A program made the position numbers and the translations under genes. Below are positions 15,145-47,975 of a stretch of 54,392 bases of DNA, piece by piece; position 1 is the first letter of the stretch, and each line of letters begins with the position of its first letter. The notes under the pieces were generated by a model. That model made no database searches. It had not been told where the DNA came from and saw only the letters and a program-made list of their open reading frames with translations. The stretch is taken from NCBI GenBank assembly GCA_017996625.1, contig JAGOGO010000005.1:1-54392 (forward strand), read 5' to 3'. This DNA comes from Deltaproteobacteria bacterium (GTDB lineage: Bacteria > Desulfobacterota > WTBG01 > JAGOGO01).

Positions 15145-15340
15145 TTATAGTAAATGTGAATGCTGAGCAAACACTTTTCGTTCGGTGCATCTCGCCATGC
15201 ACTCAGCCAAAAATATACTCACCGCTTCTTCTGCTCCGCACACATTCAGCACCAGCTTTGTAAACGCCGTATACGTACGAGAGGACAGATTCCTTTCCTT
15301 CTCTATTTCGCAAAGGGAACCTCGACGAACTATAGTGCCT

Positions 15341-17215
15341 ATGGTATCAAAGCACCTCGATTCTTCTGATTGCCCGGCCAATCCCTTGTCTCGGTCCACC
15401 GAGCCCCGTGACGAGTTTCTCAAGAAACTCAACTGGCTCATGTTCTCACGGGTGATGATCGTGACATTTCTTCTGGGCTCGACGCTTCTCATCGACTTCA
15501 AAGACACATCCCGCATTCTTGGCCCTTATCTTATCAGCCTCTACGTCGTAATCGGCGCAACCTATGCACTCACTCTCATTTATGCCTTCCTGTGCAGGCG
15601 CATTAAGAACCTCGTTCCCTTTGCCTACGTTCAGATCATTCTTGATCTCGTCTATGTCACCCTCATTGTCTACATAACGGGCGGAATCGACAGTATTTTT
15701 TCGTTTCTCTATATACTCTCTATTATTAATGCAAGCATTCTGCTCTATCGTCAAGGCGGCCTGTTGATTGCCTCCCTGAGCAGTGTTTGCTATGGCGCCT
15801 GCATTACCCTGGAATACTGGGGTATTCTCCCGTCGCTTGCCGGCCTCAGCGGCCGCGTCGCCTCATACCAGGTCCGCGATATCATCTACATGGTATTTAT
15901 CAACGTACTTGCCTTCTACGCGACTGCGCTTTTATCCAGCTTTCTTGCCGAGCAGCTCAGGCGTTCACGTGAGGAGCTCAAAGAGCGGGAGGTTGATATT
16001 AAAGAGCTGGAAGCGCTGCACCACAATATCGTACAAAGCATCGGGAGCGGAATTCTCACTCAGAACCAAAAAGGGGAAATCACTTCTTTCAATATTGCCG
16101 CTCAGGAAATCACCGGCTACGAGGCTCGGGATGTGCTCGGATTTCGCTTCGATGAGGTTTTTCCCGCCGCAGCGGCTTTGGGAGATCGTCTCCAGGACCG
16201 ATCCTACTGCGGTCCCCTCTCTCGCTTCGAGATCAATTTTTCCAAACCTGACGGCACCCGCTTGTTTCTGGGGTTCTCAACGTCCGTGCTCAGAGGCAAG
16301 ACCGGAAACGAGATGGGCAAAATCCTCACCTTTCGCGATTTGACAGCCTTTCGCGAAATGGAAGATCGAATGAAGCGCATGGATCGCCTCGCGGCAGTAG
16401 GCCAGCTTGCTGCCGGCATTGCCCACGAGATCCGCAACCCCCTGACCTCCTTAAGCGGAAGCATCCAGGTGCTTCGCGACGAACTCCATTTGAACGACGA
16501 AAATCGGCGACTGATGGAAATCGCACTTAGCGAAACCGAGCGACTGAACGGCCTGATAACTGATTTTCTTCTTTTTGCTCATCCTGAACAAGGAGAAAGA
16601 AAGAGTGTCGATGTATCTTCACTAGTGAAGGAAACGCTCGCGCTTTTCGCCAACAGTCCGGAATGCCGCAACGGACTCAGAATCACCACTTCCATTACTC
16701 CCAGTCTCTTTGTTCTCGGAGACAAAAGCCAGCTGAAGCAGGCCTTCTGGAATATTCTCCGCAATGCTGCTCAAGCCCAGCCCGGCAGCGGCTTCATTCA
16801 TGTTGACCTTCACCAGGAACTGGAGAGAGATGACTGTCCCCCGGGCGCGACCGGACCCTGGGTGGCCGTGGCCTTTCAGGACGGAGGGGACGGGATTCCC
16901 GACGATATTCAGAAAAAGATTTTCGATCCATTCTTTACGACCAAGGAAAACGGTTCAGGCCTCGGGCTGGCTATTACGTTCCGTATCATCGAACAGCATC
17001 AGGGTGAAATAGGAATACGCAGCGAGCTTCATCACGGTACGGAAGTCTTTCTATTCCTTCCGTGCTTCCCTGGTCACGCGAGCGATACATCCTTCGATCC
17101 TGCCGGAACGAATTCTTTTGCGCCAGCACACTCTTCGAGAAGACATAAGGCAGCAAGAGTGGCTAAAGAAAATCTGTCAAATGCCGAAAAAAGAAAGGAG
17201 GCAGGAACGCGGTGA
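15341..17215 (+). CDS. pilS: PilS-type membrane sensor histidine kinase with PAS domain
   Basis: PilS phosphorylates PilR, which activates sigma-54 transcription of the pilin gene. ATG 15341 gives 624 residues beginning with a short polar segment before LKKLNWLMFSRVMIVTFLL; the frame stays open to an earlier ATG at 15185, but that stretch is unlike coding sequence. About six membrane segments occupy residues 30-200. A coiled region follows, then a PAS domain (HHNIVQSIGSGILTQNQKG). The H-box AAGIAHEIRNPLTSLSG has the phosphorylated His near residue 362. N-box NILRNAAQAQPG, GDGIPDD, FFTTKENGSGLGLAI and the ATP lid complete the kinase. A stray tail of about 40 residues ends the protein. No pilR gene is next to it. 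Confidence 0.88.
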   Translation: MVSKHLDSSDCPANPLSRSTEPRDEFLKKLNWLMFSRVMIVTFLLGSTLLIDFKDTSRILGPYLISLYVVIGATYALTLIYAFLCRRIKNLVPFAYVQIILDLVYVTLIVYITGGIDSIFSFLYILSIINASILLYRQGGLLIASLSSVCYGACITLEYWGILPSLAGLSGRVASYQVRDIIYMVFINVLAFYATALLSSFLAEQLRRSREELKEREVDIKELEALHHNIVQSIGSGILTQNQKGEITSFNIAAQEITGYEARDVLGFRFDEVFPAAAALGDRLQDRSYCGPLSRFEINFSKPDGTRLFLGFSTSVLRGKTGNEMGKILTFRDLTAFREMEDRMKRMDRLAAVGQLAAGIAHEIRNPLTSLSGSIQVLRDELHLNDENRRLMEIALSETERLNGLITDFLLFAHPEQGERKSVDVSSLVKETLALFANSPECRNGLRITTSITPSLFVLGDKSQLKQAFWNILRNAAQAQPGSGFIHVDLHQELERDDCPPGATGPWVAVAFQDGGDGIPDDIQKKIFDPFFTTKENGSGLGLAITFRIIEQHQGEIGIRSELHHGTEVFLFLPCFPGHASDTSFDPAGTNSFAPAHSSRRHKAARVAKENLSNAEKRKEAGTR

Positions 17216-17320: not shown

Positions 17321-17337
17321 TTGGTATAAGCATTGCA
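17321..17337 (+). promoter_or_regulatory. Sigma-54 (RpoN) promoter of the pilin gene
   Basis: TTGGTATAAGCATTGCA matches the RpoN pattern TGGCAC-N5-TTGCA, with GG and GC exactly at the -24/-12 spacing. Transcription would start near 17348, giving a leader of about 65 bases before the pilin. This agrees with PilS/PilR control in the family. Confidence 0.75.
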
Positions 17338-17412
17338 TATGAGGAGGGTAACGATCGACACTGACTTTCCGCGATTATTAACAAACTTTACAATATAAGG
17401 AGGTGAATGGCT

Positions 17413-17874
17413 ATGGTAAGCACATTCTTCAAAAAGGCAAAAGGCTTTACTCTGATCGAACTCATGATAGTTGTGGCCATCATCGGTATTCTGGCCGCGA
17501 TCGCGATCCCGAACTTCATCAGGTATCAGGCCAAAAGCAAGCAGTCAGAGGCAAGAGCGAATCTTAGCGCCATCTATACCAGTGAGATCGCCTTCTTCGG
17601 AGAGAAGGATAGTTTTACTGGTAATATGGAGCAGTTGGGATGGGAAGCAGCGGGTACCCCGAAATACTCCTACAGTCTGATTGCCGGTGGCAGCACTGAT
17701 CCTGTCGGTGGCACGGCTGGCGGCACGGCTGGCGGCACGGCTGCTGCTGACGGCTTCACAACGTTTACTGCCGACGCCGCAGGACAGATCGATAGAGATG
17801 CTGTTCTGGATCATTGGCGCATCAACCAAGACAAGGAGCTGACAAATACTACTAACGACGTAACTGAGAGCTAA
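17413..17874 (+). CDS. pilA: Type IV major pilin (prepilin), PilA-like
   Basis: The start is ATG 17413 because AAGGAGGTGA (17397-17406) is then at good spacing; ATG 17407 is only three bases from its core. The 153-residue prepilin has an 11-residue basic leader ending KKAKG, then FTLIELMIVVAIIGILAAIA, with Phe at +1 and Glu at +5 as prepilin peptidase and assembly require. Mature residues F24, Y27, Y44, F50 and F51 give an aromatic-rich N-terminal helix. The globular part has no Cys, so no D-loop disulfide. It contains three GGTA units from 12-bp DNA repeats and ends TNTTNDVTES, rich in Ser/Thr. A strong terminator follows. Confidence 0.92.
   Translation: MVSTFFKKAKGFTLIELMIVVAIIGILAAIAIPNFIRYQAKSKQSEARANLSAIYTSEIAFFGEKDSFTGNMEQLGWEAAGTPKYSYSLIAGGSTDPVGGTAGGTAGGTAAADGFTTFTADAAGQIDRDAVLDHWRINQDKELTNTTNDVTES
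17707..17742 (+). repeat. Three 12-bp tandem repeats inside the pilin gene
   Basis: GGTGGCACGGCT and then GGCGGCACGGCT twice encode GGTA three times. The second and third units are identical; the first differs at one base. The unit length keeps the frame, so copy-number change would lengthen or shorten an exposed Gly/Thr loop. Confidence 0.85.
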
Positions 17875-17895
17875 AAATAGCTTCATCCTATGTGG

Positions 17896-17930
17896 AGAAG
17901 GCGGGGGCTTGCCTCCGCCTTCTTTTTTTT
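17896..17930 (+). terminator. Strong intrinsic terminator after the pilin
   Basis: AGAAGGCGG pairs with CCGCCTTCT around a partly paired loop, followed by eight T bases. It ends the pilin transcript before the DUF2723 genes. The remaining gap to 18112 holds only an inverted repeat, GAGAAGAT...ATCTTCTC (18033-18076). Confidence 0.92.
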
Positions 17931-18112: not shown

Positions 18113-19236
18113 TTTGCATCGATGTTTTCTTTTCAGGTATATTCAAGATAGTGTTTCGTGTCCTCAGCAATCAACTCATCCCCTGGAAGTACGGCTTTGC
18201 CCGCTATGACTCTATCAGAAAGCACCCAAAGAAGATGCTTATCGCACGGTCTGATCGCAGGTCTTATTTTTTTCGCCGGCCTGGCACTGTTCCTCTCTTC
18301 GATCTGTCCTACGCTCTACTGGCGTGACGCGGCTGAATTCCAGGTGGTGGCTTTTGAGCTGGGGGTGGCCCATCCGGCCGGCTCGCCTTTTTATACTTCC
18401 CTCGCAAAGCTCTTCACCTTTCTTCCCCTGGGCAATATTGCCTTCAAAGTAAACCTCGCCTCTGCTTTCTTCGGAGCTTTGCTTCTGGCACTGACCTTTC
18501 TGCTCATCATCGAGTGTGCCCAGCGTCTCTTTCCTTCACTCAACAGAACGTTTCTGCTTTTGAGCAGCACAGCTGCCGTAGTGCTCTACGGGGTATCAGA
18601 ATCACTCTGGCACAATTCCATTGTTGCTGAAGTCTACACACTGCAAAACTGTCTGATCGTCTGGATCGGCTTGCTCCTGGTACGCAGCCTGCGCACCGAT
18701 ACGAAGCGCTGCCTGTATCTCGCTGCTTTTCTCTTCGGCCTGAGCAGCGGAGCCCACATCATCATGATTCTCTACATTCCGGCGCTTATTCTTTTCCTGT
18801 GGCTTTTCCACCGCACGTTCCTCTCCCCCGTACACCTTGCGCCCCTGATCATGCTGGTCATGCTCGGAGCATCCATTTACCTCTATCTGCCGGTACGTTC
18901 CTCCGTCGATCCTCACTACGACTGGGGCAATCCGGAAACACTGACAAACTTTGTCACGCACGTCACTGATCGCAAAGACCAGGGCCGCCATTTCGCCTTT
19001 TATCCGGAGAGGCTCCCCGGTCGCCTGAAGGCCTATGCAGGCTACTACTACGAGGACTTCGCAGTGCTGGGCATCCTGCTTGGTCTGAGCGGTCTGTTTG
19101 TTTTCATGAAAAAAAATCCCCGGCTCTTTTTCAGTCTGGCACTTTTCTTCTTCAGTCAATGGTGGTTCTTTATCCGCTACTGGCCCTGGTCATCCGCCTT
19201 CCTCGCTACCTTCATCTTCTTTACTCTTCTGATCGC
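18113..19236 (+). repeat. 1124-bp perfect direct repeat, copy 1
   Basis: The sequence from TTTGCATCGATG at 18113 to CTTCTGATCGC at 19236 is repeated base for base at 20330-21453 (offset 2217). I compared the copies line by line and saw no difference. It covers the promoter, the leader and the membrane half (about 359 codons from the GTG) of the first DUF2723 gene. Confidence 0.97.
18114..18143 (+). promoter_or_regulatory. Promoter inside repeat copy 1
   Basis: TTGCAT (18114-18119), 18 bases, TATATT (18138-18143). The repeat boundary falls one base before the -35 box, so each copy carries a whole promoter. Confidence 0.5.
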
Positions 19237-20329
19237 GATCGGCAGCTGTGCGTTCTTTACCCTGCTGGCGGGAAAACGGTCCGCGGGTTCGCCGGGCCTT
19301 ACAGGTATCATCCCCGGGGTTCTTCTTACCGGCCTTGCGGCTACTACTCTTCTTAGCGGGAACATACACTGGCAAAACATCAGTCGATTGGACTACTGGA
19401 ATCCTTCGACATTCTTTTCTCAAATCTATGATTGTATGCAATGGAACGGTCTGCTGATCACTAAGGTTTCCTTCTTTGGCATCACGTATCTTCAGGTATG
19501 CGAGAACTACCAACCGGGCTGTACGATCCTCAATTACAATGACATCATGAGCCCCTCCTTATTTTGCTCTCTCACCCCGCAGCGATATCCTCTCATCCGC
19601 ATTCCCGAGGATCTCGGGCCGAACCCGCTCGTGCGGGTTGTCGAAGAAAACGTGATGGAACAATACGTGTATCTTGAACCGAACTGGAATATTGTTTCCC
19701 AGTACGGACACGGCATTGAAGCCGATGGCATGGTCCTGCGCGTTAACGGGCCGGGGACACCTGACAGGTGCAGCAGTCACCACGCCAATATCCTAAGAAC
19801 CCTTTTGGACAAAACCAAACCCCGTTTTCTTAAATACAACGATAGCGAAGAACGATCAATCATCGGATACCTCTTCGAAGATCTCGGCATCTTCTTTTAT
19901 AAACGACTGCATAATTACCAGCAGGCAGTAGTTCACCTTTCTCTGGCCCACAAGCTGAGCCCGGAGACCCTGAATCCGATCAATGGACTTGCCTCCTCCT
20001 ATCTTGAGCTAAACCAGCTCACACCGGCGCGACACTACGTGCACAAGGCGCTTGCTCTCAATCCGGATGACACATCCGCTCTTCTCACGCTCGCCGAAAT
20101 CCACTATCGCACCCGTGACTATGCATCGGCGCAGGGGTGCTACGAGCGGGTCGTCCAATTGAATCCGGAGGAACGGGCCGCTTATTTCGGATTAGGCCAG
20201 GCTTTCACTGCCACGGGGAACCAACATTCCGCCCGCACTGCCTTTCAACAAGTACTCTCTCTCGCGTCTTCCGACGATGCACTATCAACAAAAGCCAGGA
20301 AGAATCTTGCTCGATTGTCATCCCCATAA
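18206..20329 (+). CDS. DUF2723 (TMEM260-like GT-C) membrane protein with C-terminal TPRs, copy A
   Basis: From ATG 18206 the protein has 707 residues; an in-frame GTG at 18158 would add 16 but lies close behind the predicted transcription start. Neither has a good ribosome-binding site. The N-terminal half holds about ten membrane segments. Its first loop, CPTLYWRDAAEFQVVAFELG, followed by AHPAGSPFY, is the DUF2723 signature, with acidic residues placed as in GT-C glycosyltransferases. Relatives such as human TMEM260 are protein O-mannosyltransferases. A soluble part follows (YWNPSTFF, CENYQPGC), then three to four TPR motifs (KALALNPDDTSALLTLAEIH). The stop immediately precedes repeat copy 2. 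The acceptor is unknown; pilin or another exported protein is inferred from position. Confidence 0.82.
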   Translation: MTLSESTQRRCLSHGLIAGLIFFAGLALFLSSICPTLYWRDAAEFQVVAFELGVAHPAGSPFYTSLAKLFTFLPLGNIAFKVNLASAFFGALLLALTFLLIIECAQRLFPSLNRTFLLLSSTAAVVLYGVSESLWHNSIVAEVYTLQNCLIVWIGLLLVRSLRTDTKRCLYLAAFLFGLSSGAHIIMILYIPALILFLWLFHRTFLSPVHLAPLIMLVMLGASIYLYLPVRSSVDPHYDWGNPETLTNFVTHVTDRKDQGRHFAFYPERLPGRLKAYAGYYYEDFAVLGILLGLSGLFVFMKKNPRLFFSLALFFFSQWWFFIRYWPWSSAFLATFIFFTLLIAIGSCAFFTLLAGKRSAGSPGLTGIIPGVLLTGLAATTLLSGNIHWQNISRLDYWNPSTFFSQIYDCMQWNGLLITKVSFFGITYLQVCENYQPGCTILNYNDIMSPSLFCSLTPQRYPLIRIPEDLGPNPLVRVVEENVMEQYVYLEPNWNIVSQYGHGIEADGMVLRVNGPGTPDRCSSHHANILRTLLDKTKPRFLKYNDSEERSIIGYLFEDLGIFFYKRLHNYQQAVVHLSLAHKLSPETLNPINGLASSYLELNQLTPARHYVHKALALNPDDTSALLTLAEIHYRTRDYASAQGCYERVVQLNPEERAAYFGLGQAFTATGNQHSARTAFQQVLSLASSDDALSTKARKNLARLSSP

Positions 20330-21453
20330 TTTGCATCGATGTTTTCTTTTCAGGTATATTCAAGATAGTGTTTCGTGTCCTCAGCAATCAACTCATCCCC
20401 TGGAAGTACGGCTTTGCCCGCTATGACTCTATCAGAAAGCACCCAAAGAAGATGCTTATCGCACGGTCTGATCGCAGGTCTTATTTTTTTCGCCGGCCTG
20501 GCACTGTTCCTCTCTTCGATCTGTCCTACGCTCTACTGGCGTGACGCGGCTGAATTCCAGGTGGTGGCTTTTGAGCTGGGGGTGGCCCATCCGGCCGGCT
20601 CGCCTTTTTATACTTCCCTCGCAAAGCTCTTCACCTTTCTTCCCCTGGGCAATATTGCCTTCAAAGTAAACCTCGCCTCTGCTTTCTTCGGAGCTTTGCT
20701 TCTGGCACTGACCTTTCTGCTCATCATCGAGTGTGCCCAGCGTCTCTTTCCTTCACTCAACAGAACGTTTCTGCTTTTGAGCAGCACAGCTGCCGTAGTG
20801 CTCTACGGGGTATCAGAATCACTCTGGCACAATTCCATTGTTGCTGAAGTCTACACACTGCAAAACTGTCTGATCGTCTGGATCGGCTTGCTCCTGGTAC
20901 GCAGCCTGCGCACCGATACGAAGCGCTGCCTGTATCTCGCTGCTTTTCTCTTCGGCCTGAGCAGCGGAGCCCACATCATCATGATTCTCTACATTCCGGC
21001 GCTTATTCTTTTCCTGTGGCTTTTCCACCGCACGTTCCTCTCCCCCGTACACCTTGCGCCCCTGATCATGCTGGTCATGCTCGGAGCATCCATTTACCTC
21101 TATCTGCCGGTACGTTCCTCCGTCGATCCTCACTACGACTGGGGCAATCCGGAAACACTGACAAACTTTGTCACGCACGTCACTGATCGCAAAGACCAGG
21201 GCCGCCATTTCGCCTTTTATCCGGAGAGGCTCCCCGGTCGCCTGAAGGCCTATGCAGGCTACTACTACGAGGACTTCGCAGTGCTGGGCATCCTGCTTGG
21301 TCTGAGCGGTCTGTTTGTTTTCATGAAAAAAAATCCCCGGCTCTTTTTCAGTCTGGCACTTTTCTTCTTCAGTCAATGGTGGTTCTTTATCCGCTACTGG
21401 CCCTGGTCATCCGCCTTCCTCGCTACCTTCATCTTCTTTACTCTTCTGATCGC
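20330..21453 (+). repeat. 1124-bp perfect direct repeat, copy 2
   Basis: This is identical to 18113-19236. It begins on the base after the stop codon of copy A, so the unit length (2217 bp) equals one promoter plus one gene. Identity ends abruptly inside the reading frame: after GATCGC the first copy continues GATCGGC and the second CCTGGGT. Confidence 0.97.
20331..20360 (+). promoter_or_regulatory. Promoter inside repeat copy 2
   Basis: TTGCAT, 18 bases, TATATT, the same element as before copy A, placed two bases after the copy A stop. It would allow separate transcription of copy B. Confidence 0.45.
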
Positions 21454-22588
21454 CCTGGGTACGTGCGGAAGCATAGATTTTTGTTTAAAATCCTTGGGCA
21501 TGGTTTGCCACCAGCGAAGGCTTCGGGTTCTATCATCAGTTCTGATACTGGCGTTTACAGTTCAGATTGTCTTTCTCGCTTTGTCTCACTACCGTAAATG
21601 TTGCCGTGCCGATTACTGGAACCCTCACGAGTTCTACGCTTCTCTGTTTCGCCATATGGAATATGGCAGCGTCCTGTTTAATACCTACCTCTACTTCGGC
21701 ACCAGCTGCCTCCAGCAGGTGGAGAACTATCGCCCCGATGTCACATCGCTGCTTCTCAGTGAAATAATCAGCCCCCAGGTCTTCAATTACGCCACTCAGA
21801 AACGCTACCCGATGATCAAAATTCCCGATGTAAAAGGAACTGACCTGGGCGAAGCGATCATAAACAACAACATTCGAGAACATTCCATTTACTGGGAACC
21901 ATGTATAGAAAGAGATCACTGGGTAAAAAGCAATCTTCAACCCGAAGGGTTTCTCTTTCGAGTTATGACGACCTCAAATCCTCTCACCCCGGAGGCCTCT
22001 ACGCTTCACAAAGAAATCGTTACGGCTTTTTTTGAGAGATACACTCCTGCAATTCTTGCTTATTACGATTCAGAGGAGCGCAATCTATACAGCAATCTCC
22101 TCAAAAGTACTGCGCAAGTTTTCTATGAGCGGAAGGATTTTCTCTCAGCAATTACACATTTTCGCCTGGCCATGAGACTCACACGCGAATCTTCCACGCT
22201 TCTTAATGCAGTTGCTTGTGCCTATGCGGGTGCCCACAAATTTGCAGATGCTGAGCATTACTTGCGCCGCGCTTTGAATCTTAATCCTTCCTATACGACA
22301 ACACTGGAGAATCTCGCGCAGGTGTACTTCGATACTGCGAGGTATACCGATGCACTCTCCTTATACAAGGAAATATTAAAGGCCAAAGACGTTAACACCA
22401 GGGCTCTTTTCGGGTATGGACAGACCTGGGAGAAGCTAGGGAATACCGCGGCAGCGATTGAAGCATACCGCACAATCCTACGTGTCGCTCCAGACTGCGA
22501 TCAAGCAAAAGAAGCGCTTGAGCGAGTTGCTGCGCTGACCGGCCGACCGGAAGGAATCATGGAAGAAGCCGCCGCCCCCCGCCCCTGA
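20423..22588 (+). CDS. DUF2723 (TMEM260-like GT-C) membrane protein with C-terminal TPRs, copy B
   Basis: The 721-residue protein (737 if GTG 20375 is used) is identical to copy A up to LLIA, about residue 343 here, and then diverges. The C-terminal half is still homologous: ADYWNPHEFYASLF against LDYWNPSTFFSQIY, VENYRPDV against CENYQPGC, and KRYPMIKIPD against QRYPLIRIPE. It holds at least three TPR-like motifs (ALNLNPSYTTTLENLAQVYF, ALFGYGQTWEKLGNTAAAIE). So an old duplicate pair has had its 5' half made identical recently. The membrane half would give the same chemistry; the differing TPR half could choose a different partner. That split of roles is inference. Confidence 0.82.
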   Translation: MTLSESTQRRCLSHGLIAGLIFFAGLALFLSSICPTLYWRDAAEFQVVAFELGVAHPAGSPFYTSLAKLFTFLPLGNIAFKVNLASAFFGALLLALTFLLIIECAQRLFPSLNRTFLLLSSTAAVVLYGVSESLWHNSIVAEVYTLQNCLIVWIGLLLVRSLRTDTKRCLYLAAFLFGLSSGAHIIMILYIPALILFLWLFHRTFLSPVHLAPLIMLVMLGASIYLYLPVRSSVDPHYDWGNPETLTNFVTHVTDRKDQGRHFAFYPERLPGRLKAYAGYYYEDFAVLGILLGLSGLFVFMKKNPRLFFSLALFFFSQWWFFIRYWPWSSAFLATFIFFTLLIALGTCGSIDFCLKSLGMVCHQRRLRVLSSVLILAFTVQIVFLALSHYRKCCRADYWNPHEFYASLFRHMEYGSVLFNTYLYFGTSCLQQVENYRPDVTSLLLSEIISPQVFNYATQKRYPMIKIPDVKGTDLGEAIINNNIREHSIYWEPCIERDHWVKSNLQPEGFLFRVMTTSNPLTPEASTLHKEIVTAFFERYTPAILAYYDSEERNLYSNLLKSTAQVFYERKDFLSAITHFRLAMRLTRESSTLLNAVACAYAGAHKFADAEHYLRRALNLNPSYTTTLENLAQVYFDTARYTDALSLYKEILKAKDVNTRALFGYGQTWEKLGNTAAAIEAYRTILRVAPDCDQAKEALERVAALTGRPEGIMEEAAAPRP

Positions 22589-22649
22589 AAGTATTTCTCG
22601 CGAGCTTGGCTCGATGCGGCGCCGTGATCCGTTTTTTCACAATAGTCAT

Positions 22650-22679
22650 TTGCATTGTTCTTTTCGCGTATATTATACT
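22650..22679 (+). promoter_or_regulatory. Promoter upstream of the GT2 gene
   Basis: TTGCAT at 22650-22655, 18 bases, TATACT at 22674-22679, within a context (TTTGCAT...CTTTTC...GTATATT) resembling the promoters in the 1124-bp repeats. The leader to the ATG at 22766 is about 80 bases and includes GAGGT-T-ACCTC. Confidence 0.5.
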
Positions 22680-22765: not shown

Positions 22766-23713
22766 ATGTACAAAAATAAGACAGTTGCAGTAGTAGTACC
22801 CGCCCACAACGAAGAACATCTTATTCTCACGGTTCTGAAAACCATGCCACCCTATGTCGACCGGATTATTGTCGTCAATGACGCCAGCACTGATGAAACC
22901 GGCTCGGTCCTGGAAGCGGAAAAGCAGCACTATCCGGCACTGGAAGTCATCCATCACGACAGCAACCAAGGTGTAGGCGGCTCTATTGCCACCGGGTATT
23001 TGCGGGCAAGAGACTTAAAGATGGATGTCACCGTGGTCATGGCCGGCGATGCGCAGATGGATCCTGCTGATCTTCCCGCAATCATCGATCCCATTGCCAG
23101 CGACCAGGCGGACTATACGAAAGGCAACCGGCTCTTTCGCGGCGAATCGTGGGAGCTGATCCCTCATTATCGCTACCTCGGCAACTCCTTTCTCTCGTTT
23201 CTCACCAAAATTGCTTCCGGCTACTGGCATATTGCCGATTCTCAGTGCGGATACACCGGCATTTCCCTGGAAGCGCTCAACTCCATCGATATCACCGATA
23301 TTTACAAACGATACGGAATGCCCAATGATCTTCTTATCAAACTGAACATCGCCGGTATGCGGGTCAGAGATGTCACTGTTCGTCCCGTCTATAACATCGG
23401 CGAGAGATCGGGGATCCGGCTCTGGAAAGTCATTCCCACTATCAGCATCCTCCTCTGGCGCGGATTTCTCCGTCGTCTCTTCGCAAAGTATGTGATCAAA
23501 GATTTTCATCCGCTAGTCCTCTTTTATTGCCTCTCTTTCCTTACCCTTCCGGTCTCGTTTCTTTTTTTCTGCCGTGTGCTCTTTGTCTACTTTTCCAGCG
23601 GCTTTGTTCCTTTTACTTCCCATCTACTGTTCTGGTTTATGTTCATTTCCGGCCTCCAGACGTTTCTCTTTGCCATGTGGTTCGACATGGAGTACAACAA
23701 GGACCTGAGGTAA
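22766..23713 (+). CDS. Family 2 glycosyltransferase, polyprenyl-phosphate sugar synthase type
   Basis: The 315-residue protein begins with a GT-A fold: VAVVVPAHNEEHLILTVLKT, VVNDASTDETG near residue 38, a motif like the DXD region at MAGDAQMDPADLP near 92, and ADSQCGYTGISLEAL near 157. Two membrane segments end the protein (about 245-310). This is the DPM1/GtrB-like layout that makes dolichyl- or undecaprenyl-phosphate hexose at the membrane. It lies after two DUF2723 GT-C proteins, which use lipid-linked sugar donors in characterised relatives, so it may feed them. A relation to Geobacter pilin-cluster glycosyltransferases is suggested by order of genes. The next gene starts four bases after the stop. 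Confidence 0.87.
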   Translation: MYKNKTVAVVVPAHNEEHLILTVLKTMPPYVDRIIVVNDASTDETGSVLEAEKQHYPALEVIHHDSNQGVGGSIATGYLRARDLKMDVTVVMAGDAQMDPADLPAIIDPIASDQADYTKGNRLFRGESWELIPHYRYLGNSFLSFLTKIASGYWHIADSQCGYTGISLEALNSIDITDIYKRYGMPNDLLIKLNIAGMRVRDVTVRPVYNIGERSGIRLWKVIPTISILLWRGFLRRLFAKYVIKDFHPLVLFYCLSFLTLPVSFLFFCRVLFVYFSSGFVPFTSHLLFWFMFISGLQTFLFAMWFDMEYNKDLR

Positions 23714-24528: not shown

Positions 24529-25458
24529 ATGGCCGTGATCCAGACCAGAAACCTCTCTAAACAATTCCGAACGTCGTTCACGCTGCGAAAGGTTGCGGCA
24601 GTAAGCAACCTCAACCTTGAAATTGACCGCGGAGAGATCTTCGGATACCTGGGCCCCAATGGCGCGGGAAAAACAACGACGTTCAAGCTCCTCCTCGGCC
24701 TCATTCGGCCCAGCGCCGGCCACATTCTGCTTTGGGATAAGGAACATCGCAGCGTTCCACAGAAGAGCAAAATCGGTTTTCTTCCTGAAAGCCCCTACTT
24801 CTACAATTACCTCACGGCGAAAGAATACCTTTTCTTCTCCGGGCGTCTCTTTGGCTTAAGCCATCGTGAGTGCACACAGAAGGTTCAGGCTTTGTTCGAT
24901 CTTGTCGGGCTCGCTGATCACCAGAACAAGCTGATCAAACACTATTCCAAAGGTATGCTGCAGCGGATCGGGCTTGCGCAGGCGCTCATCAATGATCCGG
25001 AGCTGCTGATCCTCGACGAGCCGATGTCGGGACTGGACCCACTCGGAAGAAAAGAGGTCCGGGACATTATTCTCCACCTCAAGGATAAGGGCAAGACGAT
25101 TATTTTCAGTACCCACATCCTTTCTGATGTGGAGACGGTCTGTGATCGGGTTGGTCTTCTAATCAACGGCAGACTGAAGGACTGCGGGCTCTTGGAAGAC
25201 CTCCTGGCGCCCAAGATCAAGTCGTACGAAATGTGCCTTAAGGATCTCTCGCAGGAAACATTACTCTATCTGGATAACATGCAGATAGAAGTACTGCAAA
25301 GAGGATCGGAAAGTTTTTTTGCGGTTCAGGAGAAGCATGCCCATTCTGTTCTTGCTGCACTTCTGAAAAAAGGGGGAACCCTGATTTCCTTCACTGCCCG
25401 CAAAGAGGCCCTTGAAGATATTTATCTTGCCGAAATTCGAGCCGGAAAGAACGTATGA
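24529..25458 (+). CDS. ABC transporter ATP-binding protein (pilus-linked, PilH-like)
   Basis: The 309-residue protein is a complete ABC ATPase: Walker A GPNGAGKTTTFKLLLGL near residue 43, Q-loop region IGFLPESPYFYNYLTAKEYL near 80, signature HYSKGMLQRIGLAQAL near 140, Walker B LLILDEPMSGLDP near 161, and the switch His in IIFSTHILSD near 192. A C-terminal domain of about 90 residues follows, as in NatA/CcmA-type exporters. The permease start overlaps its stop (ATGA). In Myxococcus an ABC pair (PilH/PilI) beside pilin genes is needed for piliation; the gene order here matches that arrangement, but the cargo is unknown. Confidence 0.85.
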   Translation: MAVIQTRNLSKQFRTSFTLRKVAAVSNLNLEIDRGEIFGYLGPNGAGKTTTFKLLLGLIRPSAGHILLWDKEHRSVPQKSKIGFLPESPYFYNYLTAKEYLFFSGRLFGLSHRECTQKVQALFDLVGLADHQNKLIKHYSKGMLQRIGLAQALINDPELLILDEPMSGLDPLGRKEVRDIILHLKDKGKTIIFSTHILSDVETVCDRVGLLINGRLKDCGLLEDLLAPKIKSYEMCLKDLSQETLLYLDNMQIEVLQRGSESFFAVQEKHAHSVLAALLKKGGTLISFTARKEALEDIYLAEIRAGKNV

Positions 25459-26219
25459 AGGTACGAGCCATCGCAGTCAATACATTCAGGGAAGCACTTC
25501 GTGACAAGGTGCTCTATAGCCTTGTTTTTTTTGCATTCGTGATGATCTTCACATCAGTAATCCTCGACCACATTACAGTGGGGGAACAAACGAAGATCAT
25601 AAAGGATTTCGGTCTCGCAGCGATTTCGCTCTTCGGGGTCCTAGTCGCCATTTTTGTGGGCATTGGCTTGGTATACAAGGAGATCGAGCGAAAAACGATT
25701 TACAATATTCTTTCCAAGCCGGTCCACCGATATCAGTTCATCGTGGGCAAGTATATTGGATTGGTCATGACCTTAGGTATCGTCACCGGGTTGATGTCGC
25801 TTCTATTCTTTCTGCTGCTGTACTGCTATGAGGGACGCGTCGATATCGTGCTGCTGCCGGCAATCGGCATGATCATGCTGGAGCTTATGCTGGTGACTGC
25901 TATCGCGCTTCTTTTCTCCTCTTTTTCCACGCCGATCCTGAGTGGACTATTCACGCTTTCGTTTTACATCATCGGCCATTTGACGCAGGATCTGCTTGCC
26001 CTGGGAAAACGCTTCTCAGGTACGTCCCTGGAGTATGGAGCCACCGCACTCTACTATCTTATTCCGAATCTTGAGTACTTCAACCTTAAAGGCACTGTTG
26101 TGTATCATATACACCAGACGCCGCAGTATTATCTTTTTACTGTTGGCTATGGCCTCCTGTACTGTCTGATTATCATTCTTCTATCAGTGGCCATTTTTCA
26201 GAATCGCGATTTTCGATAG
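25455..26219 (+). CDS. ABC-2 type transporter permease (pilus-linked, PilI-like)
   Basis: The 254-residue protein has six hydrophobic segments. It starts VRAIAVNTFREALRDKVLYSLVFFAF, the usual opening of ABC-2 permeases. The short cytoplasmic stretch VYKEIERKTIYNILSKPVHRYQFIVGKYIG near residue 75 is the conserved coupling region of this family. It shares four bases with the upstream ATPase gene, so the two are translated together and form one transporter, presumably as a dimer of each. It ends near a further cluster gene 51 bases downstream. Export or insertion of a pilus-related component is inferred from context. Confidence 0.85.
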   Translation: MKVRAIAVNTFREALRDKVLYSLVFFAFVMIFTSVILDHITVGEQTKIIKDFGLAAISLFGVLVAIFVGIGLVYKEIERKTIYNILSKPVHRYQFIVGKYIGLVMTLGIVTGLMSLLFFLLLYCYEGRVDIVLLPAIGMIMLELMLVTAIALLFSSFSTPILSGLFTLSFYIIGHLTQDLLALGKRFSGTSLEYGATALYYLIPNLEYFNLKGTVVYHIHQTPQYYLFTVGYGLLYCLIIILLSVAIFQNRDFR

Positions 26220-45140: not shown

Positions 45141-47975
45141 ATGCGTCGCACACTCGTTCTTCTCCTGCTTGCGGCAAGCTTTCTGTTCTTCAACACTGCG
45201 TTTGCTGATCAAGCCGGCACGGTTGCCCTCAGCGCTTCTTCCCTGCCCATTCAATACCACGCTACCTGTGCTGCCGCGGGTGGTTTTGTTCTTGAATTCA
45301 CCAGCGGCACTTTTATTAATTCATACAGCCAGATAACGGTAACTCTGGACGAAGGTGTCGTGTTGTGTCACGATATCGATCTCGAGATTTCTCCGGGCGG
45401 GGAAACCTCGTCCTGGACCGGGAGCCTGGCCAGCGAAGGCAACATTCCTCCATCGGGTGCACCGGTCACTGATCCCACTCAGACCTCAACAAGCCAGGGC
45501 GGCGGCGTCTACTTCCGGGTTTTAGGAGATGCAGGTTCAAATGAGATACGAATAATGGTAGACAGTAGCTTTGGCACCGCCTCTCTGATAGTTGGAAGTG
45601 GTGCAAACGACAAGATCATTCTCCATATCCTTACCCAGGAGACGAATGCCGCCGATTTCCAGGCGCAGCCCGGAATTTACACTGATCCCGATCACAATGA
45701 AGCGTACACCCAAGCAGCGACCGCAGCAGAAAACACCCTTTTCATCAACACCACGGAGTGGAGCGAACAAACGGTCGATGCTCATTTTATTTCCGTAGAA
45801 AATTTCACATTTGTTCCCTCAACCGTCGAGATTGCGCATACGGAAACACCACCCCCGCCCCAACCACCGACCTATCGGGTAACCGGCCAGAGCAGTTCTC
45901 CACTCATTTCTTGCTCCTCACGATGCGGTGAAGCAGGCGACATTATGCTTTCCTTCGATAGCGGTGCCGTTATCCGGCCCGGAGACTATTTTGCGATTTA
46001 CCTGGAACCGGAAGTTACCCTCTGTAAGAATATCGATCTCGAAATATCAGCCGGCGGATCAGGAGCGCCGTGGAGCGGCGCCGCAGCTCAGGGCGGTAAC
46101 ATTCCTGCTTCCGGTGCACCTTTGACTGACTCCGGTCAACGTTCAAAAGCCACGGGGAACGGGATTTATTTTCATGTCACCGGGTCACAGGGAAGCAATA
46201 AGGTTAAGGTAACGGCACGCGGCAGTGACGACGACAGCCTTACCGTCGGCTATAAGAGTAGCGACCGCCTCGTGCTTGAGGTGCTGACAAAGAAGACAAA
46301 TACCGCAGGATACAGCAGCCGCCCCGGTGTTTATATCCGCTCCGAGAAAGACGGCAACTATTCTGTGCCGGCTACTCGCCAGGATACCACCCTTTGTATC
46401 GACATATCGCAAACGGATGCGGATACGGTATTAGGATACCTTTCCTGTGGTAACAATTTTGAAATTGAACCCTATTACCTCAAGGTAGCTCGTCTGTCTG
46501 AGCCGGTCAGTTATCACCTACACCTGTGTAGTGACACCGGTCCCGGTCAGATTGCGGTTCCGGATGCCGCTGATCAGGATTGTTTTTCTTTCGGGTATGA
46601 AACCGGAATCGGTTACATTCCGGAAACCGGGCCCGACAATGCTTCACGTAAACTTATCATTCAGACTGGCTCGGAAAACACCTTTTTCTCACCGGCCGAC
46701 TATCAAATTGAGCTCAAAATTCTCACTGCGGGAGTATTTTGGTCCAACGATCCAGTTTGTGCCGACGAGTATGCAACTGCAGTCGAAGCCTGCAGCAATG
46801 ATCCTGCCCAAACGGTTGTCGGTAGCCAAACTGATTATCAATACTGGACATCATCTGGCCAAGCAGCAACACCTGCCGCTCTCGGCGGCTCCAGCTCGAC
46901 ACCTTCGTGCTCTGGCTCCGGCGATGCATCGACCCTGCGCACCAACTGTGATGCAGTCATTTCCGGCTCAAACGTAGCCGCACTCAGCATCAAACTGCCG
47001 CGTCTTACCGGTGATCCTTCAGCAGTAACCATCGGTAGTGAGGTTTTGGTCCGCATCGCCATGTTCGGATGTTCCTGCACCGGCCAGATATTCAATGCCG
47101 CTATTTCCCTTGGCGTTCTTGCCTCACAGGAAACCGGCTTTCACGCGGTCATCGTCGGTATCAGCGACTATCCGGCGTCAAATAGCGACCTTACCCATGC
47201 TGACGACGATGCACGGGATCTTGCTTCCAGTCTTCTTGCCTTTCCAAACTGGAAATCCGACAACATCCAGCTTCTGCTCAATGAAAACGCGTCAGTGAAC
47301 GCTATTGTGAGCGCCATCACTGCAATGGGTAGCCAGGCTTCGGCCAACGACACGTGCCTCTTCTTCTTTTCCGGCTTGGGATCCAACCTGCACAATTCGC
47401 TCACTCCTAATGAATCGAACCCCGGCGCTGGTGCTTTGGCTGCCTACGATGGAATGCTCTCTTACGACGAGATCGCTGCAGCACTTGCCGGCCTGCCATC
47501 AAAAAGCGTGGTCAGCATCGTTGATGCTTCTCACGGCGGCTCTCCACTCCTTGATGCGGTGCTTTCCCGGGGCCGGATAAAATGTCTGCCCCGGTTCCAA
47601 ACCTACACAGTTGCCAGCGACGAACTGGTCGCTGATCTATCAGTGAACAATCAAGCAAAAGGCCTCACCGTAAGCTCGGGTGTGACCTTCTCGGCTTCAA
47701 ACGATGACGCTCTCGCTTGGGAATTCGATCGACTCCAACACGGCCTGCTGACGTATGCTCTTATCCGAGCGATTCAGACATTCGCAGACACGAACCAGGC
47801 TGCTGAGCTCTCCGCTGAAGCACTGGGAACCGCGACTATGAAAACGTTCGAGAACCTTTACTCTCAGTATCCGAAGCTCTACGACGTGCTGCAGCAGATG
47901 CCTGCGGTACACGACGCCTACCCTCCGGAAGCGCCGGCATCAGCAGAGATTCCGCTGCTTATCAAGCAACAATAG
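45141..47975 (+). CDS. Large secreted protein with two repeated beta domains and a degenerate caspase-like domain
   Basis: AAAGGAGG precedes ATG 45141. The 944-residue protein has a signal peptide (MRRTLVLLLLAASFLFFNTA, cut near FADQ). Two related domains follow: about 28-233 (CHDIDLEISPGGETSSWTGS, NIPPSGAPVTD) and 247-455 (CKNIDLEISAGGSGAPWSGA, NIPASGAPLTD), joined by the linker TPPPPQPPT. A Cys-containing region spans 456-660. The C-terminal part from about 667 (GFHAVIVGISDYPASNSDLT, DDDARDLASSL) is a C14 caspase-like fold. The catalytic His motif SGHG reads SGLG (Leu746), and DACHSG reads DASHGG (Ser797 for Cys). It is therefore probably a non-proteolytic pseudo-caspase. No anchor is visible. 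Function is unknown. Confidence 0.8.
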   Translation: MRRTLVLLLLAASFLFFNTAFADQAGTVALSASSLPIQYHATCAAAGGFVLEFTSGTFINSYSQITVTLDEGVVLCHDIDLEISPGGETSSWTGSLASEGNIPPSGAPVTDPTQTSTSQGGGVYFRVLGDAGSNEIRIMVDSSFGTASLIVGSGANDKIILHILTQETNAADFQAQPGIYTDPDHNEAYTQAATAAENTLFINTTEWSEQTVDAHFISVENFTFVPSTVEIAHTETPPPPQPPTYRVTGQSSSPLISCSSRCGEAGDIMLSFDSGAVIRPGDYFAIYLEPEVTLCKNIDLEISAGGSGAPWSGAAAQGGNIPASGAPLTDSGQRSKATGNGIYFHVTGSQGSNKVKVTARGSDDDSLTVGYKSSDRLVLEVLTKKTNTAGYSSRPGVYIRSEKDGNYSVPATRQDTTLCIDISQTDADTVLGYLSCGNNFEIEPYYLKVARLSEPVSYHLHLCSDTGPGQIAVPDAADQDCFSFGYETGIGYIPETGPDNASRKLIIQTGSENTFFSPADYQIELKILTAGVFWSNDPVCADEYATAVEACSNDPAQTVVGSQTDYQYWTSSGQAATPAALGGSSSTPSCSGSGDASTLRTNCDAVISGSNVAALSIKLPRLTGDPSAVTIGSEVLVRIAMFGCSCTGQIFNAAISLGVLASQETGFHAVIVGISDYPASNSDLTHADDDARDLASSLLAFPNWKSDNIQLLLNENASVNAIVSAITAMGSQASANDTCLFFFSGLGSNLHNSLTPNESNPGAGALAAYDGMLSYDEIAAALAGLPSKSVVSIVDASHGGSPLLDAVLSRGRIKCLPRFQTYTVASDELVADLSVNNQAKGLTVSSGVTFSASNDDALAWEFDRLQHGLLTYALIRAIQTFADTNQAAELSAEALGTATMKTFENLYSQYPKLYDVLQQMPAVHDAYPPEAPASAEIPLLIKQQ

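Follow-up and report, generated by a model that had tools for sequence, protein, structure and literature searches.

The locus and its two GT-C/TPR genes

The stretch of DNA analysed here (the window) is a whole contig of 54,392 nt from the 261-contig genome of a Deltaproteobacteria bacterium. It carries two tandem genes for membrane proteins ending in tetratricopeptide repeats (TPRs), placed behind a type IV pilin gene and followed by genes for a GT2 protein, an ABC transporter and a TPR protein. The features of interest, all on the + strand, are the following:

15185..17215, +: PilS-like histidine kinase (PF25323 6TM_PilS, E 8.4e-24)
17407..17874, +: type IV pilin gene upstream of gene 1, with a Myxo-type PilA N-terminus
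17894..17925, +: strong terminator-like hairpin, downstream of the pilin gene and ahead of gene 1
18113..19236, +: repeat copy 1 (R), which has 45 non-coding bases and then runs into gene 1 as far as the second base of codon 360 (359 complete codons)
18158..20329, +: gene 1, 723 aa, TMEM260-like GT-C with C-terminal TPRs (PF11028, E 3.5e-31, and TPR families)
19237..20329, +: 3' remainder of gene 1, outside the repeat (half of the penultimate TM helix, the last TM helix, a periplasmic domain and the TPRs)
20330..21453, +: repeat copy 2 (R), identical to copy 1 and carrying the start of gene 2
20375..22588, +: gene 2, 737 aa, with the architecture of gene 1 (PF11028, E 3.6e-31, and TPRs)
21454..22588, +: 3' remainder of gene 2, outside the repeat, with 28-29% amino-acid identity to its gene 1 counterpart
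22766..23713, +: GT2 (PF00535), resembling polyprenyl-phosphate sugar synthases (AglJ and PpgS matches below cut-off)
24529..26219, +: ABC ATPase and permease genes (profile matches)

In both proteins PF11028 covers residues 57-215 with 108.8 bits (gathering cut-off, 24.2) and the TPRs lie near the C-terminus. By sequence, genes 1 and 2 are members of the TMEM260-like GT-C family (PF11028 / GT117), and no additional PF11028 gene was found in the source genome. An AlphaFold model of gene 1, built from an alignment of 29 proteins (window and relatives), reached a pLDDT of 90 and a pTM of 0.89; compared with PDB folds, its membrane part resembles PglB, the yeast and human STT3/OST and ALG12, and its tail resembles TPR proteins. 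Seven residues are invariant in the 29-sequence alignment (P51, D57, E60, H72, G75, Y160 and G194), all of them in the half that is identical between the two genes, and D57 and E60 provide the acidic residues in the first external loop that are expected of a GT-C enzyme. The tail has evolved about twice as fast as the front half. A conserved N-terminal GT-C module with an acidic first external loop, followed by C-terminal TPRs, is also found in TMEM260 (CAZy GT117) and TMTC1-4 (GT105), which are O-mannosyltransferases, although genes 1 and 2 differ in being bacterial and in adjoining type IV pilin genes. In the human TMEM260 and TMTC proteins catalysis is assigned to the N-terminal module, and the TPRs have been proposed as acceptor recruiters (PMC11292533).

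Extent of the repeat and the assembly

Positions 18113-19236 and 20330-21453 agree at 1124 of 1124 bases, and the flanking base differs on both sides, so that the match has zero extension. The TAA stop codon of gene 1 occupies 20327-20329 and repeat copy 2 starts at the next base, while the right end falls within codon 360. A previous examination of the bare DNA (the sequence-only reading) had described a perfect direct repeat that begins immediately after the first stop codon and ends in mid-frame, and these points are confirmed. Its statement that the membrane halves of both genes are identical holds for the larger part: in the model of gene 1 the right end of the repeat lies inside helix 345-376, which leaves the last membrane helix (379-408) to the diverged sequence; the repeat thus takes in the greater part of the membrane half, not the whole of it, and its border is near the domain border, not on it. 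The claim that the unit starts one base before a promoter is unproven, as a consensus scan at the start of the unit did not find a sigma-70-type promoter. A sequence at 22649-22676, before the GT2 gene (TTTGCAT...TATATT), resembles the first bases of the unit, which may reflect a shared promoter type or chance. The window contains no other notable repeats besides the 1124-bp pair, a genome-wide search with R returned these two copies only, and R had no match in the plasmid collection queried.

The possibility of an assembly artefact had also been raised. The right end of the window overlaps the end of another contig (C19) by exactly 127 bp, which indicates a de Bruijn assembly at k=127. SPAdes loop resolution bears on the copy number of repeats in short-pair assemblies. 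metaSPAdes collapses most strain-level differences and read-pair fragments below 1000 bp are too short for 1124 bp, so that such assemblers may merge slightly differing copies and the copy number of a repeat of this length is beyond short pairs (PMC8021871). It is conceivable, therefore, but in our judgement unlikely, that 5' halves that were similar and not identical have been merged, or that the number of units consisting of R and a tail is wrong. Well-diverged copies would have assembled separately, the four joins, among them that between tail 1 and R, must derive from reads, and both joins between R and a tail keep the reading frame and can be aligned through the junction to the gene of a relative (C115, described below). 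Two near-identical copies of R are thus taken as real, and a simple misassembly is improbable; what survives of the objection is that the exact identity and the copy number depend in part on the assembler, in this case a short-read-type assembly at k=127.

Age of the pair and origin of the identical front halves

The tails of genes 1 and 2 share 44% of their DNA positions, with a pS of 0.78 (saturated) and a dN of 0.79, whereas the front halves have 0 differences over ~269 synonymous sites and their 45 non-coding bases are identical too; DNA identity drops at codon 360 from 100% to 44%. Over 373 pairs of family members, N-terminal identity increases with C-terminal identity, and a regression on these pairs predicts, for a C identity of 28.6%, an N identity of ~37%, and the 100% observed in the window pair is 14.5 residual SDs away. 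This regression is loose for close orthologs, whose fronts are 57-60% identical at a tail identity of 30-36%, although all remain well short of 100%.

The only close relative is a Deltaproteobacteria MAG of the same family and another genus (G002), which has two copies of the gene. One of them (on contig C211) is in the same place, after pilS and a pilin gene, and is represented by its front only, because it is cut by the contig end and its C-terminal half is missing. The second (on contig C115) is almost full-length, and the genes after it encode a PMT_2 membrane protein and one more pilin (L033, 2131-4645). The tail of the C115 copy has an identity of 34% with tail 2 and of 30% with tail 1, and tails 1 and 2 are 28% identical to each other. 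As the window tails are as diverged from one another as from the copy of another genus, the pair is old and its identity is new, in agreement with the sequence-only reading, which had described the C-terminal halves as homologous and strongly diverged; judged by these tails, the duplication is about as old as the genus split within the family, or older. In a 28-row tree of the C-terminal part, gene 2 joins the C115 gene (support 95/88) among the family's own clade; in the 10-row trees this grouping has a support of 63/58, and AU tests reject no alternative, including either direction of conversion. The tree positions suggest that gene 2 and the C115 gene are likely orthologous.

Zero changes at ~269 synonymous sites, together with identical non-coding DNA, require copying of DNA. 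We consider it highly probable, on this comparison of fronts and tails, that a recent partial gene conversion (or an equivalent recombination) homogenised the front half in an old tandem pair, as one of the proposals of the sequence-only reading had it. Three features expected of interlocus gene conversion are found here: a tract of near-identity bounded by diverged homology, identity at silent and non-coding positions, and a duplication that predates the identical tract (with moderate tree support). Two tandem paralogous GT-C/TPR genes would have diverged around or before the split of the family's genera, and homologous recombination would later have copied the 5' 1124 bp of one gene onto the other; RecA-type recombination of the ordinary kind, acting on tandem copies through conversion or paired unequal crossovers, would explain the tract. 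The tract would reach both ends of the block in which the two copies could still be aligned well. Its left end is probably the boundary of the ancestral duplication, just past the stop codon of gene 1, and its right end may be the place where the conserved membrane domain yields to the fast-evolving tail and homology becomes too low. Homogenisation confined to the front half would be tolerated, or favoured, by selection for a donor and a catalytic core common to both enzymes. The GC3 of the front (0.64) is nearer to that of tail 1 (0.59) than to that of tail 2 (0.51), which slightly favours gene 1 as the putative donor; the comparison with G002 favours neither gene.

The low GC3 of tail 2, below both the front and tail 1, could also be read as the mark of a newcomer, if the whole gene was recently duplicated in tandem and the second copy then received a diverged tail from elsewhere; the left end of the repeat is compatible with a duplication junction. 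Nevertheless, tail 2 falls in the family's own clade, beside the gene of G002, and a second pilin-linked copy already present in that relative makes an old pair the simpler history, so that such a replacement seems quite improbable. Much less credible still is a programmed exchange, in which a constant catalytic module would be combined with recognition tails that can replace one another through recombination between the direct repeats. Repeats of this length could recombine (a single crossover would delete 2217 bp and join the front to tail 2), but genes 1 and 2 are both intact and complete, and neither of the elements expected of recombinational cassette switching was found: R has only two copies in the genome, which has no further PF11028 gene to serve as a spare cassette, and no dedicated recombinase is present among the window genes scanned. 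In the relatives, the tails group as the fronts do and no recombined C-terminal halves were seen. Of the constant-catalytic, variable-recognition design put forward in the sequence-only reading, the weak sense stands, given the seven invariant residues of the identical half and the faster tail; the exchange by recombination that was attached to it finds no such backing.

Partial gene conversion is a process already known, and the locus is a new instance of it, in a pilin-linked enzyme family. In prokaryotic gene conversion and concerted evolution, as described for tuf, mtrA and other genes (PMC6053082), paralogs exceed orthologs in likeness, also at synonymous sites, as is the case here, and mtrA is a tandem pair like genes 1 and 2; the cases in that survey are full-length, whereas genes 1 and 2 are homogenised in the 5' half and the upstream bases only. 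A literature search on gene conversion in tandem glycosyltransferase genes returned nothing direct. The window pair is a clean partial conversion, and its limits almost coincide with the change from a conserved catalytic module to a binding module that evolves fast.

Traces of a similar process may exist in the relative. The G002 fronts are 67% identical in amino acids to each other and 60-63% to the window fronts, and of the 150 sites at which their amino acids agree, 83 also have the same codon, compared to 60 expected when codons are shuffled within amino acids (z 4.2, reached in 0/2000 shuffles), with a clustered codon run (p 0.006) and an identical stretch of 50 bp. The same test gave z values of 0.0 and 2.5 for the window against G002 and of 1.2 for the window tails. 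This excess of shared codons suggests an older, patchy homogenisation in the G002 lineage, in one pair only. A proposed break of the G002 contigs at an identical repeat found no support, since the C211 end matches C115 at only 80%. A recurrent homogenisation of the catalytic half, kept by selection while the two tails track different pilins, appears doubtful on these sequences; if true, one shared catalytic module would be kept identical by recombination and the TPR tails would be free to diverge. That all tandem TMEM260-TPR pairs homogenise their fronts was rejected, as the pairs of an unrelated genus (G054/G090/G150) diverge in step, with N and C identities of 40-41% and 36-38% in the G054/G090 control pairs.

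Linkage to pilin genes and predicted function

TMEM260-like loci were fetched from relatives in a survey of pilin linkage. Close upstream of the gene and on the same strand, a pilin motif was present in G067, G029, G102, G076, G364, G038, G042 (C164), G345, G380, G054, G090, G176, G098 and G002 (C211), and ~2 kb upstream in G063; no pilin motif was found near the TMEM260-like gene in G016 (C66), G041, G042 (C131), G390, G007, G005, G011 and G332. Gene 1 itself and most relatives of its clade are adjacent to a pilin gene. TMEM260-like TPR genes directly behind a type IV pilin gene occur in many genomes of the phylum (loci L069, L036, L070, L072, L071, L037, L038, L075, L076, L080, L065, L068, L078 and L034). 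The source genome has a second pilin/GT-C cluster (L097, G000:C224, 458-4230), in which the genes after another pilin gene encode a TPR-bearing membrane protein that looks TMTC-like by eye and then a PMT_2 protein.

The pilin motif upstream of the gene in many relatives makes a pilin or a pilus-associated protein the likeliest acceptor, and genes 1 and 2 probably glycosylate pilins. Both enzymes would use one polyprenyl-phosphate sugar, handled by the catalytic membrane half that they have in common, and would pass it on to pilins or other exported proteins, with the periplasmic TPR tail choosing the acceptor; the GT2 gene at 22766..23713 is a candidate maker of the lipid-linked donor. Like genes 1 and 2, the pilin O-glycosyltransferases TfpW, PilO and PglL are membrane enzymes often encoded beside the pilin or another target. 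We take the TPR tail and the TMEM260-type module to be what sets genes 1 and 2 apart from them. PglL homologs adjacent to possible targets are described in PMC3643930. Literature searches on DUF2723 and on TPR-bearing pilin GT-C enzymes returned nothing direct. The locus points to bacterial TMEM260-like enzymes with TPR tails, encoded directly behind type IV pilin genes, as candidate pilin glycosylation enzymes, which would be simple relatives of the human O-mannosyltransferase TMEM260.

Several minor features were observed around these genes. A 12-bp tandem repeat inside the pilin gene (17710-17743, 2.8 copies, 100% match) encodes a GGTAGGTAGGTA stretch that contains several threonines and may be an O-glycosylation site of variable length. 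Upstream of the same gene, TTGGTATAAGCATTGCAT at 17321-17338 fits by eye a sigma-54 promoter (GG-N10-GC), as expected for pilins controlled by PilS/PilR. The position of the ABC ATPase and permease genes is presumably like that of the myxobacterial pilH/pilI. Further downstream, positions 45141-47975 encode a 944-aa protein with a C-terminal caspase-like domain (Peptidase_C14, E 2.1e-15).
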